Part shown: positions 14,885 through 39,949 of the stretch, piece by piece
Layout: each line of letters opens with the position of its first letter
Position numbering within the stretch: position 1 is the stretch's first letter
Made by a program: the position numbers and the translations under genes
The notes under the pieces: generated by a model
Databases searched by the model: none
The model's input: the letters and a program-made list of their open reading frames with translations, nothing else
Told to the model about the DNA's origin: nothing
Assembly: GCA_028817875.1 (NCBI GenBank)
Contig: JAPPOO010000083.1
Span: forward strand, 1-40,016
Direction of reading: 5' to 3'
Length of the DNA stretch: 40,016 bases
Origin: Alphaproteobacteria bacterium
Lineage (GTDB): Bacteria; Pseudomonadota; Alphaproteobacteria; UBA2136; JAPPOO01

Positions 14885-15910
14885 CTATGCGGCTTCTTCA
14901 GTTTTCTCCGCTTCGGAAGATGCCTCCGCTTGGTTTTCCCCACGAATTTTATTTTCAATTTCCTGCATAATTTCAGGGTTTTCTTTCAGCCAATTCTTAG
15001 CGTTTTCACGCCCTTGGCCAATACGGGTACCGCTATAGCTAAACCAAGCCCCAGCTTTTTCAATGACATTCTGGTTTACACCCATATCAATAATTTCGCC
15101 TGTTTTGGAAATACCCTCTCCATACATAATGTCAAAAATAGCTTCACGGAACGGCGGGGCAACTTTGTTCTTCACAACCTTCACACGGGTCGTGTTACCA
15201 ATAACTTCATCCTTATCCTTAATGGCACCTGTACGGCGGATGTCCATCCGCACAGAACTGTAGAATTTCAGTGCGTTACCACCTGTTGTTGTTTCAGGAT
15301 TACCGAACATCACACCAATCTTCATCCGGATTTGGTTGATGAAGATAACCATGCAATCGCTACGGGCGACTGTTCCTGTAAGTTTACGTAAAGCTTGAGA
15401 CATCAAGCGTGCTTGCAAACCAACATGAGAAGCCCCCATCTCCCCTTCTAGTTCAGCTTTAGGCGTTAAAGCGGCAACAGAGTCAACAACCACAACGTCT
15501 ACAGCACCGCTGCGTACGAGTGTATCAACAATTTCTAAGGCTTGCTCACCGCTATCCGGTTGGGAAATCAATAAATCAGAAACTTGTACACCCAGCTTTT
15601 TCGCATAGTCTGTATCCAACGCGTGTTCTGCATCCACAAACGCGCAAGTTCCGCCCATTTTTTGAGCCTCCGCCACAGTGTGCAATGTTAGCGTTGTTTT
15701 ACCTGAGGACTCAGGCCCGTAAATTTCAATAATACGTCCTTTAGGAAGACCGCCTATGCCAAGTGCAACATCCAACCCCAAAGAACCTGTGGAAACGGCT
15801 GTAATTCCTTCTTGTACAGCTGTTTCATCCATTTTTAGAATGGCTCCTTTACCGAATTGGCGTTCAATTTGACTTAGCGCAGCATCTAACGCTTTTTGAC
15901 GGTCACTCAT
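14885..15910 (-). CDS. recA: Recombinase A
   Basis: 341 residues. RecA drives strand exchange in homologous repair and triggers LexA cleavage. It begins [22 protein letters not shown] as in alphaproteobacteria. The Walker [10 protein letters not shown], the VDAEHALD segment, [10 protein letters not shown] (Walker B), loop L1 [10 protein letters not shown] and L2 [21 protein letters not shown] are all intact. The upstream frame extends to 16003, but the ATG at 15910 matches the family and has AAGGGG upstream. The 280 bases upstream contain neither a GTTC-N7-GTTC alphaproteobacterial LexA box nor a CTGT-N8-ACAG box that I can find. Confidence 0.97.
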
Positions 15911-16190: not shown

Positions 16191-16601
16191 ATGAGTAAAG
16201 TAATTTTAACCGTTGATGACTCTATGACAATTCGCCAAATGGTTGGATTTGTCTTGAAGAATGCGGGGTACACAGTAGTAAGTGCTGTAGATGGCATTGA
16301 CGGCTTAAACAAGGCAAAATCCCAACATGTTGATCTCATCTTAACAGATTTAAATATGCCAAATATGGATGGCTTAGTATTAACACAATCCCTCCGTACC
16401 GAAACAAACTATGCAACAACACCTATTTTTATGATGACGACAGAATCTGACGATGAGAAAAAAACAGCAGGACAACAGGCTGGTGTGACTGGATGGATTG
16501 TAAAACCCTTTAACCCTGATCAACTACTAAAAGTTATTGAACAGGCTTTAAATTCTGAAAAAAGTGCGACAGCAACAGTAACGGAGTTAGCTACAGGTTA
16601 A
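16191..16601 (+). CDS. CheY-like single-domain response regulator
   Basis: 136 residues, a lone receiver domain. The acidic pair is D9-D10, the phospho-acceptor D53 (LILTDLNMPNMDG), the switch Thr in MMTTES (83-84) and the conserved Lys in VKPF (105). VDDSMTIRQMVGFVLKNAGY resembles chemotaxis-type CheY. AAGGA lies seven bases before the ATG. There is no output domain, so it acts through protein contacts. It is the first gene of a three-gene run with a STAS protein and a kinase-receiver-phosphatase fusion. No CheA or other histidine kinase is encoded nearby, so its phosphodonor is unknown. Confidence 0.93.
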   Translation: MSKVILTVDDSMTIRQMVGFVLKNAGYTVVSAVDGIDGLNKAKSQHVDLILTDLNMPNMDGLVLTQSLRTETNYATTPIFMMTTESDDEKKTAGQQAGVTGWIVKPFNPDQLLKVIEQALNSEKSATATVTELATG

Positions 16602-16726
16602 TTTTCAATAGGTATGATGCCCTATGGCGAAATTGCCATAGGGATATCACATATTTCATCTTTTTTTCTTTCCAAGAAAATACCCAGCTTTCATAATTTT
16701 TGCCAAACGAACAAAAGGATTTTTTT

Positions 16727-17038
16727 ATGCTAACAGTTACAGAGCCCGTTTCAGGGGAATTTGAACTTAAATTTGACAAAACATTTGATTTTGAGTCTCA
16801 CAAAGAGTTTCGTCAGCACATTAAAGATATTATGGACAAGAATCCTCAACGCTTGAGCCTCAATTTTGCTGATGTAGAGTACTTAGACTCCTCAGCTTTA
16901 GGTATGCTGATGCTTGCTAAGCACGAAGCTGATGCAAAATCGGCACAGATTGTGATTACTCAGCTTAAAGAGGGACATGCACGAAAAGTACTGGAACTTG
17001 TAAAGTTTGATCAGTTATTTGCAATTGAATATGCCTAG
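16727..17038 (+). CDS. STAS-domain anti-sigma-factor antagonist-like protein
   Basis: 103 residues, a single STAS domain. The phosphorylation loop is VEYLDSSALGMLML with Ser55/Ser56 after D54, as in SpoIIAA/RsbV-type proteins. AAGGA lies six bases before the ATG at 16727. The next gene carries both a serine-kinase-like HATPase and a PP2C phosphatase, which are the two enzymes expected to phosphorylate and dephosphorylate this serine. It is therefore the likely substrate and output of the cassette. The downstream target (a sigma factor, secretion or motility component) is not seen. Confidence 0.92.
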   Translation: MLTVTEPVSGEFELKFDKTFDFESHKEFRQHIKDIMDKNPQRLSLNFADVEYLDSSALGMLMLAKHEADAKSAQIVITQLKEGHARKVLELVKFDQLFAIEYA

Positions 17039-17086
17039 GTAATTGGCTGTGTATGTTTCCCCTGCAATGCAAGGAAGGATTTTATT

Positions 17087-19003
17087 TTGAAGCTTGCTTT
17101 TCAAGATATCTTTTGTGGTGCAGGGGTTGCTGCTGAGGCCAAAAAAACTTTTACGAAATTTATTGATCCTAAATCTTTAGATGGTTCTTTATTCGTTGGA
17201 ACAAATAGTGAAAGTCTTTTAGAGGGTATTGCTGAAAAGCATAGTGCTTTTTTAATTGGTTCTTCTTACGAAAAACTTGCCTCTAAAATAACTTGGCCGG
17301 ATGAAAACCAAACAGGACAGCTTGCCTTACTTATTGTTGCAGAATGCAGGTTTTTATATGGTAATCACATTTCAGAGCATTTAGCGGAATATTTAGCAAG
17401 CCAAAACTTGCTAGGAGACGAGCAACGCCCAACATTTCACCTTATTTTACAGGAAGCGTTAGCCAACGCCATTGAACATGGTAACCTTGGTCTCTCCAGT
17501 CTCAAAGACCGTAAAGTAGACGAGTATACATGGCTAGATAAATATTACGCACGCGTAAAAGATATGCTAGCGAATACGGATAACGGCCGTAGGACTGTAA
17601 CCATCTCCATTATATTACAAAATGACAGCCTACTGGTATGGGTGGAAGATGAAGGTGGTGGTTTTGATATTAATAAGACCAGCCAAGCTGTACAGTTTAC
17701 AAAGGTGTATAACCGAGGACTAGGCCTTTCTATGCAGCTCTCAGAAGAAATTAAACATGACAAAGGTGGCAGGCGCTGTTTCTTTAAAATACCTTGTTAT
17801 ACTCAACATACTAAATTTGCCCCGCCAACTCGCTCAACAGCTAAAGAAAAGGGTAAAATCCTTATTGTTGACGATCAAAAAATTAACCGCGACCTTGCAC
17901 GACACTTTTTAACATCAGCCGGCTATAAAAATGTCGAAACAGCGGTTGATGGAAAAGACGCTATGGATAAGGTAGAAATATTCAACCCTGACCTGATCTT
18001 ATTAGATATTATTATGCCGGAAATGGATGGATTTGAAACTTGTACAGCCCTCAAAGCAAACCCTGAAACATCCAATATTCCCGTCCTATTTTTATCAGGC
18101 CTCACCGATGCCAATAGCCGAACTCAAGGCTACCGCTTAGGTGCTGTAGACTACGTTAATAAACCTATTGACCGTAACGAAATGGTAGCACGGGCCGATG
18201 TCCATATTCTGAACGGTATGATGTTGAAAGCAACGCAGGTTTTCTCTCAGAGGCTTGTGGATGATCTTAAACATGCTCAACGTTTTCAAGCCAGCCTTCT
18301 TCCCTCTGCTCAAGTACTAGAACAAGCGTGTGAACGGTATGATATTTCTATCCATGCGCACTTTAACCCATGTGATGAATTAGCAGGAGACTACTGGCAT
18401 TTCTTTCCTATTGATGATGAAAATATTGCTTTAACACTTGCTGATTTTACAGGGCATGGTGTTTTAGCAGCATTAAACACTGTTAATTTACACGCTCTTT
18501 TTAATGAATTTGAACAGATTGTTCACGACCCTCTAGAAATAGTGAATAAACTAAATGACCGTTTATACAAAACGCTGAAAATTGAGCATTTCGCAACACT
18601 TTTCTATGGCGTGCTCAATATTAAAACAGGCAAACTGCGCTATGTATCTTGTGGCGCTCCCGCCCCTATCATTATACCAGCTGACACTGATAAAAAGCCA
18701 ATTTTATTAGATTCAGCAGGTTTGCCTGTTGGATTAATGGATAGCACAGTATTTTCAACGACTGTACAAGAAGCTAAATTGGATAAAGGGGACAGACTCT
18801 TTTTATATAGTGATGCTTTAGAAGAAAGTTTGCATGCAGAAGATACGATTTGGGAGGAAGATATTTTAATCGAAAAGCTGAGCCAATGCAGCCAAAATAA
18901 AGAGGATAGCCTAACCCTTATTAACAACATTTTACGGCAATTTAACCGCACTGTACAAAAACCACTTAAGGATGATTTAACGCTTGTAAGTATCCAACTT
19001 TAA
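17087..19003 (+). CDS. Fusion of anti-sigma-type kinase, receiver and PP2C phosphatase (SypE-like)
   Basis: 638 residues with three domains. About 110-240 is an RsbW-like HATPase with N-box E123/N127 (LQEALANAIEHG), a DEGGGFD loop (188-194) and GLGL (211-214). About 256-375 is a receiver with D262-D263, phospho-acceptor D307 (LLDIIMPEMDG), S337 and K359. About 395-638 is a SpoIIE-type PP2C with GDYW (434-437), DFTGHG (453-458), YSDALEE (D576) and KDDLTLV (D629, D630), so all metal sites look intact. The order matches SypE of Vibrio, which controls the STAS protein SypA; here the STAS gene is just upstream. The start is TTG with GGAAGGA seven bases before it. The first 100 residues match nothing I know. 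Its stop overlaps that of the convergent gene. Confidence 0.93.
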   Translation: MKLAFQDIFCGAGVAAEAKKTFTKFIDPKSLDGSLFVGTNSESLLEGIAEKHSAFLIGSSYEKLASKITWPDENQTGQLALLIVAECRFLYGNHISEHLAEYLASQNLLGDEQRPTFHLILQEALANAIEHGNLGLSSLKDRKVDEYTWLDKYYARVKDMLANTDNGRRTVTISIILQNDSLLVWVEDEGGGFDINKTSQAVQFTKVYNRGLGLSMQLSEEIKHDKGGRRCFFKIPCYTQHTKFAPPTRSTAKEKGKILIVDDQKINRDLARHFLTSAGYKNVETAVDGKDAMDKVEIFNPDLILLDIIMPEMDGFETCTALKANPETSNIPVLFLSGLTDANSRTQGYRLGAVDYVNKPIDRNEMVARADVHILNGMMLKATQVFSQRLVDDLKHAQRFQASLLPSAQVLEQACERYDISIHAHFNPCDELAGDYWHFFPIDDENIALTLADFTGHGVLAALNTVNLHALFNEFEQIVHDPLEIVNKLNDRLYKTLKIEHFATLFYGVLNIKTGKLRYVSCGAPAPIIIPADTDKKPILLDSAGLPVGLMDSTVFSTTVQEAKLDKGDRLFLYSDALEESLHAEDTIWEEDILIEKLSQCSQNKEDSLTLINNILRQFNRTVQKPLKDDLTLVSIQL

Positions 19004-19926
19004 AAGGGTACTTCTTGATAAGAATACTTACCTGCCTTCAGATATTTTTCAGATTTTTCTTCAACTTCTCCCAAAAGACTGAGCCCCGGACCAGTAGGGT
19101 CTAATAAAATAAAATTCTCTCCTCCAAGACGGATGCTATAGTCTCCTTTTTGTGGTCTCATTTGAATCCCAACAAAAGCGTGTTCTGGCACATAAACAAT
19201 AACACTACGCAAGTGTGGGTACAGCTGCCGCAACATAGCAGCTAGCGTTACGCTTTTTGTATCACAATCACCGCGATTATTTAGCAATAAACCGTAAGGC
19301 GTTTGAAAACCAGCGCCGTTAGAGGTTTCGCGGTTAACAAGCTGGTCATACGGAATTGTTTGTAACCATCCTAACATATAGTTAATGGTAGCACGCTGGT
19401 TATACCCTCTGGTTTTAGAACGAATTGCCCGTACAACAGGCTCCATAGGAGTAACATAACGTTTAGCAATATGCCTATGGTCAGGCATTACATAATCTCC
19501 GTAACGCATATAAAAGTTCTGTTTAGTGTACTCTTCCATTGCCTGTTCTTGAGCAGCTTTTATTTTTTTGGCATATACTGCCTGCTCTGATGACGACATA
19601 TTGATGTAAATTACATCAAATCCATAAGAGTTTTCCTCAACCCGCAACCGAGGAAATTTTTTAACAAACTCTTGCACTTTTTTAAAAGCATAATCATTTG
19701 CCTTTTGGTTATCAAACCCCTTAAATTCGCTATTGCCCTTAGCAACATCTTTTTTAGAAAGCCTAAAAACAAGGGTGCGATTTTTGCGACTTCTATCTTG
19801 CCAACGGTAACTGAGTACAACATCTGCTCCTGCATACTGCCGTTTAAATAGTTTTTGCTCTGCATGGGCAGAAAAGCCAATGCTGACAATATACAAACAA
19901 AGGATAAAAAAGAAATATCTTAGCAA
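19000..19926 (-). CDS. Secreted transglutaminase-like cysteine protease family protein
   Basis: 308 residues with a signal peptide (cleavage near AHA/EQ, 22). The transglutaminase-like catalytic triad is visible: C221 in NRGDCDTKS, H249 in VPEHAFVG and D276 in LLDPTG. The N-terminal half (25-170) is unassigned and charged. Periplasmic transglutaminase-like proteins cleave or cross-link peptides; the substrate here is unknown. The start is TTG (19926), three bases after the stop of the upstream secreted-protein gene, so the two form a unit. The 3' end overlaps by four bases the convergent SypE-like gene. Confidence 0.85.
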   Translation of the reverse strand: MLRYFFFILCLYIVSIGFSAHAEQKLFKRQYAGADVVLSYRWQDRSRKNRTLVFRLSKKDVAKGNSEFKGFDNQKANDYAFKKVQEFVKKFPRLRVEENSYGFDVIYINMSSSEQAVYAKKIKAAQEQAMEEYTKQNFYMRYGDYVMPDHRHIAKRYVTPMEPVVRAIRSKTRGYNQRATINYMLGWLQTIPYDQLVNRETSNGAGFQTPYGLLLNNRGDCDTKSVTLAAMLRQLYPHLRSVIVYVPEHAFVGIQMRPQKGDYSIRLGGENFILLDPTGPGLSLLGEVEEKSEKYLKAGKYSYQEVPF

Positions 19927-38833: not shown

Positions 38834-39394
38834 CTACTGACAACATTTAATAGCCATGTAATTACACTCCCAACGACCACCAATGCGATTACAGTTATGT
38901 ACATTGTAAACTGAAACTGCCTGAATCACACTTCCAACAGGACATTCTATTTGAGATTGACTATGATGGTTACCAGTCTCTACTCCAGTTCTCCAATGAC
39001 AGTTATTCCCCCCTCCTGTAGAAGGCACGTCACAGTTTAGTCTAGTACTATAAGGGCCAGGTTCAGCACGACACATTCTACCATTTTGCAGGGTTCCTAT
39101 CTGTGGGTCATTTTCAACAACAGCCCGTTGAGGATGCACACATGCACCGTTCAATAGTATTTGCCCTGCATTATTGCAGAATTCCAACATATCTAGCTTA
39201 GCTTTTAAAGCGTCAACTGATGCTTTGGATCTGCTCACCAGTATATCAATATTACTTAATAAATCATTAAATCTCGAACTTGATTGCCCTGTTGTAAGCT
39301 CCACTTCTCTGTCAACTGCAACTGTTGTTTGAGCATAACTATGCACTGAAAAAGTAAGAATAAAGCAAGCCGTTAATATTAAAGTCTTTATCAT
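38834..39394 (-). CDS. Secreted coiled-coil plus cysteine-rich protein, paralogue A
   Basis: 186 residues from ATG 39394, with AAAGG seven bases upstream. A signal peptide (MIKTLILTACFILTFSVHSYA) is followed by a heptad-like helix (FNDLLSNIDILVSRSKASVDALKAKLDMLEFC), then a Cys-rich domain: GQILLNGACVHPQR, RMCRAE, NCDVPSTGGGNNCHW, ETGNHHSQSQIECP, VHNCNRIGGRWEC and KCC. It shares this whole layout with the upstream gene 39413-39949. No family recognised. The build, a coiled-coil stalk and disulfide-rich C-terminal domain, suggests an oligomeric extracellular protein; this is inference. Confidence 0.85.
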   Translation of the reverse strand: MIKTLILTACFILTFSVHSYAQTTVAVDREVELTTGQSSSRFNDLLSNIDILVSRSKASVDALKAKLDMLEFCNNAGQILLNGACVHPQRAVVENDPQIGTLQNGRMCRAEPGPYSTRLNCDVPSTGGGNNCHWRTGVETGNHHSQSQIECPVGSVIQAVSVYNVHNCNRIGGRWECNYMAIKCCQ

Positions 39395-39412
39395 TGTCAA
39401 ACCTTTCAATTT

Positions 39413-39949
39413 TTAACGACAACACTTAACAAGAAACCTGTCGCACTCCCAGCTTCCCCCAATACGCTCACAATTATGTACACCATAAATGGACAAACCT
39501 CTCATTTGCCAGCCAAAAGGGCATTCTATCTGAGTTTGATTAAAAGAATTACCAGTCTCTAGCCCTCCATACCAACGGCAACTATTCCCTCCTCCAGCTG
39601 CAGGCCGATCACAAATAATCTGTTGACCATCACTACGACACATCATATTAGGCCACAAAGCACCTACTTTTGGGTCAGTTTCTTGAACAACACGTTGAGG
39701 GTCACGACAACCTCCGGATGCATATATCTGCCCACTCAGATGACAATTTTCAATATTACCAATTCTGTTTTCAAGCTCAGTTTTAACTTCATCAACTTTT
39801 GTATCCAAAGCGTTAAGTACAGACTCAGCCGCACTCAACTTAGTCTCAAGCACAGCATTATCATGTATATTTCCTAACGAAGAAGCCAAACCATGAGGTA
39901 TTGCAGTAAAAAACAGCAACCCCGTAACAACAGTAACTAAAATATGCAA
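39413..39949 (-). CDS. Secreted coiled-coil plus cysteine-rich protein, paralogue B
   Basis: 178 residues. The start is TTG 39949, with AAGGGAG nine bases upstream; no in-frame ATG gives a full signal peptide (HILVTVVTGLLFFTAIPHGLA). A clear heptad region (VLETKLSAAESVLNALDTKVDEVKTELENRIGNIENC) precedes a Cys-rich domain: GQIYASGGCRDPQR, NMMCRSD, ICDRPAAGGGNSCRW, ETGNSFNQTQIECP, VHNCERIGGSWEC and KCC. It aligns with paralogue A along its length, with the ETGN, QIECP, VHNC.RIGG.WEC and KCC blocks kept. Translated just before paralogue A, 18 bases apart. Upstream promoter lies at or beyond the window edge. Confidence 0.85.
   Translation of the reverse strand: MHILVTVVTGLLFFTAIPHGLASSLGNIHDNAVLETKLSAAESVLNALDTKVDEVKTELENRIGNIENCHLSGQIYASGGCRDPQRVVQETDPKVGALWPNMMCRSDGQQIICDRPAAGGGNSCRWYGGLETGNSFNQTQIECPFGWQMRGLSIYGVHNCERIGGSWECDRFLVKCCR

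Follow-up and report, generated by a model that had tools for sequence, protein, structure and literature searches.

A SypE-like partner switch beside recA in a UBA2136 alphaproteobacterium as the probable detached output module of a second chemosensory system

Here, we describe a STAS gene and an adjacent SypE-like gene from an alphaproteobacterium (GTDB UBA2136), which probably form an output module for the second chemosensory system of this genome, the non-flagellar one. This module would have become detached from its sensor genes and would be driven by a CheA protein encoded on another contig, C25, acting via Ser55 of the STAS protein. Directly observed are the gene content and domain order, the intact active sites, the operon membership of the pair in relatives, the common flanks, and the type of the accompanying CheY. 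The CheA and the cassette lie on different contigs, and in this genome the link between them is one of homology, not of linkage.

Results

Anatomy of the three-gene cassette

The window, the whole stretch of 40,016 nucleotides analyzed here, carries three forward-strand genes at positions 16191 to 19003, whose extent and reading frames in the initial annotation were borne out by an ORF check and by Pfam, and whose catalytic residues are intact. The first gene (16191..16601) encodes a free CheY-like receiver (Response_reg, E=1.6e-27), the second (16727..17038) encodes a single-domain STAS protein (STAS, E=3.2e-12), and the third (17087..19003) encodes a 638-aa regulator comprising a probable decayed receiver, followed by HATPase, receiver, and PP2C domains. 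The cassette is flanked on the left by the divergent recA gene on the reverse strand (14885..15910; RecA, 9.7e-142), and on the right by a convergent transglutaminase-like gene, likewise on the reverse strand (19000..19926). Its surroundings comprise recA, recX, an ABC exporter, the transglutaminase-like gene, and EF-P (names partly assigned by reading), and the setting of a symbiosis-polysaccharide (syp) locus was not found among these window neighbors. Toward the end of the window (38837-39949), two tandem genes encode putative secreted proteins, which are mutually similar and of which neither has a Pfam match.

The CheY and STAS genes are spaced by 125 bp containing a strong hairpin on the forward strand (16615..16649; z=-2.8), with perfect 9-bp arms at 16620-16643. 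This hairpin is present in a single copy in the genome, which rules out a genome-wide repeat as its origin. An intrinsic terminator was not called in this gap by the terminator scan, and a T-run is present only at a distance downstream, too far for the canonical form. It is possible that the hairpin represents an attenuation or processing site. Relics of other che genes were sought in the recA-CheY and CheY-STAS gaps, and none were found. Considering the hairpin-bearing gap, a single CheY-led transcript is not established; thus, the proposal that a free CheY leads the unit holds for the presence of a CheY-like receiver upstream, but not for one transcript starting with it.

The STAS protein most likely starts at the ATG at position 16727, which places the acceptor at Ser55. 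In the alignment, D54-S55 is invariant across relatives and matches D57-S58 of the Bacillus SpoIIAA chain, whereas Ser56 varies, being S or T in kinase-linked relatives. Therefore, Ser55, and not Ser56, is the predicted acceptor, which narrows the initially suggested pair Ser55/Ser56 to its first member.

The 638-aa protein had been annotated as one polypeptide uniting an RsbW-type kinase, a receiver, and a PP2C phosphatase, and the Pfam matches and intact residues of all three domains agree with this. The RsbW/SpoIIAB-type serine-kinase domain (17378..17767; HATPase_c_2 at residues 98-227, 7.7e-7) retains the catalytic residues E123/N127/E130/D188/G190/G192, with the kinase Asn N127 invariant in the alignment of relatives. 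It is followed by the receiver domain (17858..18196; Response_reg at residues 258-370, 9.3e-29) with intact D262/D263/D307/S337/K359, of which Asp307 is the phospho-acceptor, and by the PP2C/SpoIIE-type serine phosphatase domain (18413..18997; SpoIIE/PP2C at residues 443-637, 1.1e-36) with intact D435/D453/D576/D629/D630. This arrangement of serine kinase, receiver, and PP2C in one protein corresponds to the SypE-like domain order, as noted initially. Kinase and phosphatase domains reside in one protein adjoining its probable STAS substrate, with catalysis predicted, and the receiver probably controls the balance between them, both as the initial annotation had it.

No Pfam match was obtained for the first ~95 residues (17087..17371). 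When residues 1-253 were modeled with AlphaFold2 (pTM 0.78) and compared by Foldseek, the best PDB match was the Leptospira response regulator LvrC (PDB 9qih; receiver-HATPase), over 270 alignment columns, followed by SpoIIAB and RsbW. A SAR324 homolog (L113) possesses an intact receiver at the N-terminal position, in the order REC-HATPase-REC-PP2C. Profile-profile comparison of the 95 residues with CheY was negative. The fold comparison and the intact homolog suggest that this segment is likely a decayed receiver. For the C-terminal half, Foldseek gave Pseudomonas aeruginosa RssB (PDB 3f7a; REC-PP2C) as the best match, and also Rv1364c, RsbX, and SpoIIE. LvrC and RssB are two separate proteins, whereas the window encodes one polypeptide. 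In many other lineages, the halves are separate neighboring genes, encoding REC-PP2C and (REC-)HATPase, so that the window protein can be viewed as both halves fused in one chain. The order REC-PP2C-HATPase was found in L071 and L077.

A second CheA operon in the genome

The window genome (1.58 Mb, 95.9% complete) encodes two CheA proteins, on contigs C51 and C25. The neighbors of the C51 CheA, assigned by reading, include CheY, CheB, and CheZ-like genes together with flagellar genes. The C25 operon has the order receptor-STAS-receptor-like-CheY-CheA-CheW-CheR-CheD and is without the STAS-SypE pair; a truncated cheB at the end of contig C50 is probably its continuation. The C25 CheA contains Hpt, dimerization, ATPase, and CheW-like domains, and shares 52-62% identity with the second-operon CheA proteins of relatives, versus at most 42% with flagellar CheA proteins. 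As a separate observation, a second STAS-only gene of the STAS_2 type lies beside a receptor-like gene at the start of the second che operon, both on C25 (L034:5642-5938) and at L099:2337-2633, which is a CheS-like position.

The window CheY shares 65% identity with the CheY encoded in the C25 che operon, 69% with its G003 counterpart, and 59-60% with those of the f5 relatives, compared with 36-37% with flagellar CheY. In the CheY tree, the C25-operon type, including the window CheY, split from flagellar CheY with a support of 100/100. In this tree, a long branch (0.52) leads to the window CheY, and the topology does not tell which of the two copies, that of the window or that of C25, belongs to the original locus. 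The second CheY may provide a parallel output, act as a phosphate sink, or be a leftover. The initial annotation had stated that no sensor kinase or sigma factor is encoded nearby; this is true of the window ORFs, but a full CheA system is present elsewhere in the genome.

Synteny in relatives and in a wider sample

In three relatives (L041, L042, and L043), CheY-CheA-CheW-CheR-CheD-CheB-STAS-SypE form one run. At the UBA2136 locus L099, the complete che-STAS-SypE operon is situated between recA and the transglutaminase-like gene, which are the flanks of the window cassette. The divergent recA flank is common to L099, L044, L040, L047, and L048, and the transglutaminase-like neighbor was also found at L099/L043 and L041. 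From this synteny and the type of the window CheY, the input, which the initial annotation had regarded as open, is probably a chemosensory array with CheA.

Partial forms of the locus were detected in other relatives, namely, recA-CheD-STAS-SypE in G012/G013 and recA-STAS-SypE in G008-G010. In G008-G010, the SypE receiver is degenerate, having lost D263 and the receiver Lys, and the second CheA is absent as well. This coincidence concerns one genus, approximately one event, and is only suggestive. In G012/G013, the second CheA is also absent and the receiver is intact; presumably, another kinase serves it. At L040 (9105-9662), in a genome without a second CheA, an apparently full-length but divergent CheD stands alone between recA and the STAS gene.

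A genome-contig scan with a SypE-like alignment yielded 80 loci, about 20 of which have che genes directly upstream, including those of Kiloniella, Maricaulis, Hirschia, Curvivirga, Nitrospira, a deltaproteobacterium, and others. In a less biased sample of 20 alphaproteobacterial loci outside the order, picked by STAS similarity alone, an adjacent REC-PP2C gene was found in 12, and 9 of these 12 carry che genes directly upstream. One of the nine, from another alphaproteobacterial family (L181; G058:C16:1-11000), has the arrangement recA-CheB-STAS-REC-PP2C, which adds another partial che operon next to recA.

Discussion

Alternative inputs and fates of the cassette

The cassette might be an ordinary partner switch, with its receiver served by a hybrid histidine kinase via an Hpt relay and its che history reflecting ancestry only. 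Hybrid kinases with receivers are also encoded in the window genome (C54, C85, and C50). In Pseudomonas, HptB, receiving phosphate from hybrid kinases, feeds the partner-switch regulator HsbR (PMC6482189), and the receiver of G012/G013 is intact without a second CheA. However, synteny with CheA in relatives and across the class, and the C25 che type of the adjacent CheY, argue for a CheA input, and we consider a hybrid-kinase input unlikely. As a side observation, a FIST-type gene (named by reading) on C54 (L037:5909-8845) directly precedes a hybrid histidine kinase with a receiver, which is a possible alternative input.

Alternatively, the locus could be a decaying remnant, in which the che operon was broken up, the CheY is a leftover, and the cassette is heading toward an input-free function as in G008-G010. 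The graded series of incomplete operons that relatives show at this locus, the long CheY branch, and the hairpin-bearing gap are consistent with such decay. Considering that no domain has lost a catalytic residue and that the CheA operon has been kept in the genome, with the Hpt, dimerization, ATPase, and CheW-like domains of its CheA, we find this reading rather improbable.

It is very unlikely that the STAS protein and the second CheY tune CheA itself, with Ser55 phosphorylation being secondary, in the manner of CheS and the phosphate-sink CheY1 of Sinorhizobium; the S. meliloti CheS is a STAS-only protein that binds CheA, steers two CheYs, and biases their dephosphorylation (PMC12654446). 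Two CheYs of one type are indeed encoded in the genome, as is a further STAS protein within the C25 che operon. However, the gene of the latter, located by receptor and CheY genes, fits the CheS role better, whereas the window STAS carries the conserved D-S acceptor motif and its counterparts in relatives within the order travel with the kinase/phosphatase gene.

Relation to known partner switches

We regard the window cassette as a chemosensory partner switch of the CrsR-CrsA kind with the SypE domain order, a likeness drawn from gene content and domains. In Shewanella oneidensis, CrsR and CrsA are encoded in the Che1 operon together with CheA1 and control RpoS (PMC9855816). There, a STAS antagonist and a receiver/PP2C/kinase regulator are encoded with CheA, CheY, CheW, CheR, CheD, and CheB, and the gene set and arrangement in the relatives of the window organism are of the same kind. 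The window likewise has the receiver, PP2C, and kinase domains and the STAS partner. In contrast to the linked relatives (L041, L042, and L043/L099), its pair is physically separated from the che genes, which reside on C25. CrsR has the order REC-PP2C-kinase, whereas the window protein has HATPase-REC-PP2C, preceded by the likely decayed receiver, and the sigma factor search of the window genome did not recover RpoS, on which CrsR acts. Beyond the Shewanella Che1 case, we found only general remarks in the literature on CheA-linked partner switches.

The initial annotation had taken SypE-SypA of Vibrio as the natural comparison; the closest studied counterpart is instead CrsR-CrsA. In Vibrio fischeri, SypE has the order kinase-receiver-phosphatase and phosphorylates SypA at Ser56, with N52 as the kinase Asn (PMC3610818, PMC8256260). 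The kinase Asn (N52 in SypE, N127 here) is conserved, and the STAS serine is at the same position (Ser56 in SypA, Ser55 here). However, the window cassette lies outside a polysaccharide locus, the history of its locus is chemosensory, and its regulator has ~75 extra residues before the kinase domain. Nothing in the window indicates the biofilm function that this comparison had evoked.

In P. aeruginosa, phosphorylation of the HsbR receiver favors dephosphorylation of the STAS protein HsbA, and HsbR-HsbA acts on FlgM/FliA, RpoS, and HsbD (PMC6482189). HsbR resembles the window protein in exerting receiver-controlled kinase/phosphatase activity on a STAS protein, and is the source of the polarity considered likely here. 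It differs in its input, HptB instead of CheA, and neither FliA nor RpoS was found in the window genome. The window also shares the HATPase_c_2 kinase fold and the STAS D-S motif with the RsbW/SpoIIAB and RsbV/SpoIIAA pairs. CheS is similar in that it consists of a STAS domain alone and belongs to a che operon in an alphaproteobacterium, but it is not described with a kinase/phosphatase partner, and the C25 STAS is its better counterpart.

Proposed mechanism and candidate targets

In the preferred reading of the pair as the output module of the C25 system, receptors would feed the CheA encoded on C25, which in turn would phosphorylate both the SypE-like protein, at Asp307, and the free CheY. 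Phosphorylation of the receiver is expected to tip the SypE-like protein toward one or the other of its two activities, serine kinase or PP2C, and the resulting balance would set the phosphorylation state of Ser55 in the STAS protein, the two forms of which may bind different partners. By analogy with HsbR, we infer that the phosphorylated receiver favors STAS dephosphorylation. We found no biochemistry on any member of this order in the literature.

The output had been left open in the initial annotation, and our sigma factor search concurs. A Sigma70_r2 search of the genome identified just RpoD, an RpoH-like factor, and two ECF factors, and no RpoS, FliA, or SigB-type (also SigF-type) factor. 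The small genes adjoining the ECF genes look, by reading, like cognate anti-sigma factors. In view of the missing factors, the STAS target would be RpoH, an ECF factor, or a non-sigma protein. The genome encodes nine GGDEF proteins. With a suitable sigma factor seemingly lacking, we tentatively entertain the possibility, itself rather doubtful, that the chemosensory array controls a non-sigma target, e.g., a diguanylate cyclase, in trans via a partner switch of the SypE order. If true, the locus would present a natural series of stepwise dismantling of a sensory operon, in which the kinase/phosphatase-STAS core was kept.

Many chemosensory arrays serve functions other than motility, and few of their outputs are known. 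A chemosensory partner switch as such is known from Shewanella Che1; the window cassette differs from it in the SypE domain order and in its detachment from the sensor genes. Our comparison points to a specific and widely repeated output module, consisting of STAS, receiver-PP2C, and receiver-HATPase, with which such operons end in Alphaproteobacteria and Nitrospira. The order of the locus in relatives names the CheA to pair with an otherwise orphan regulator, and the absence of RpoS and FliA makes the question of the STAS partner directly testable in this genome.
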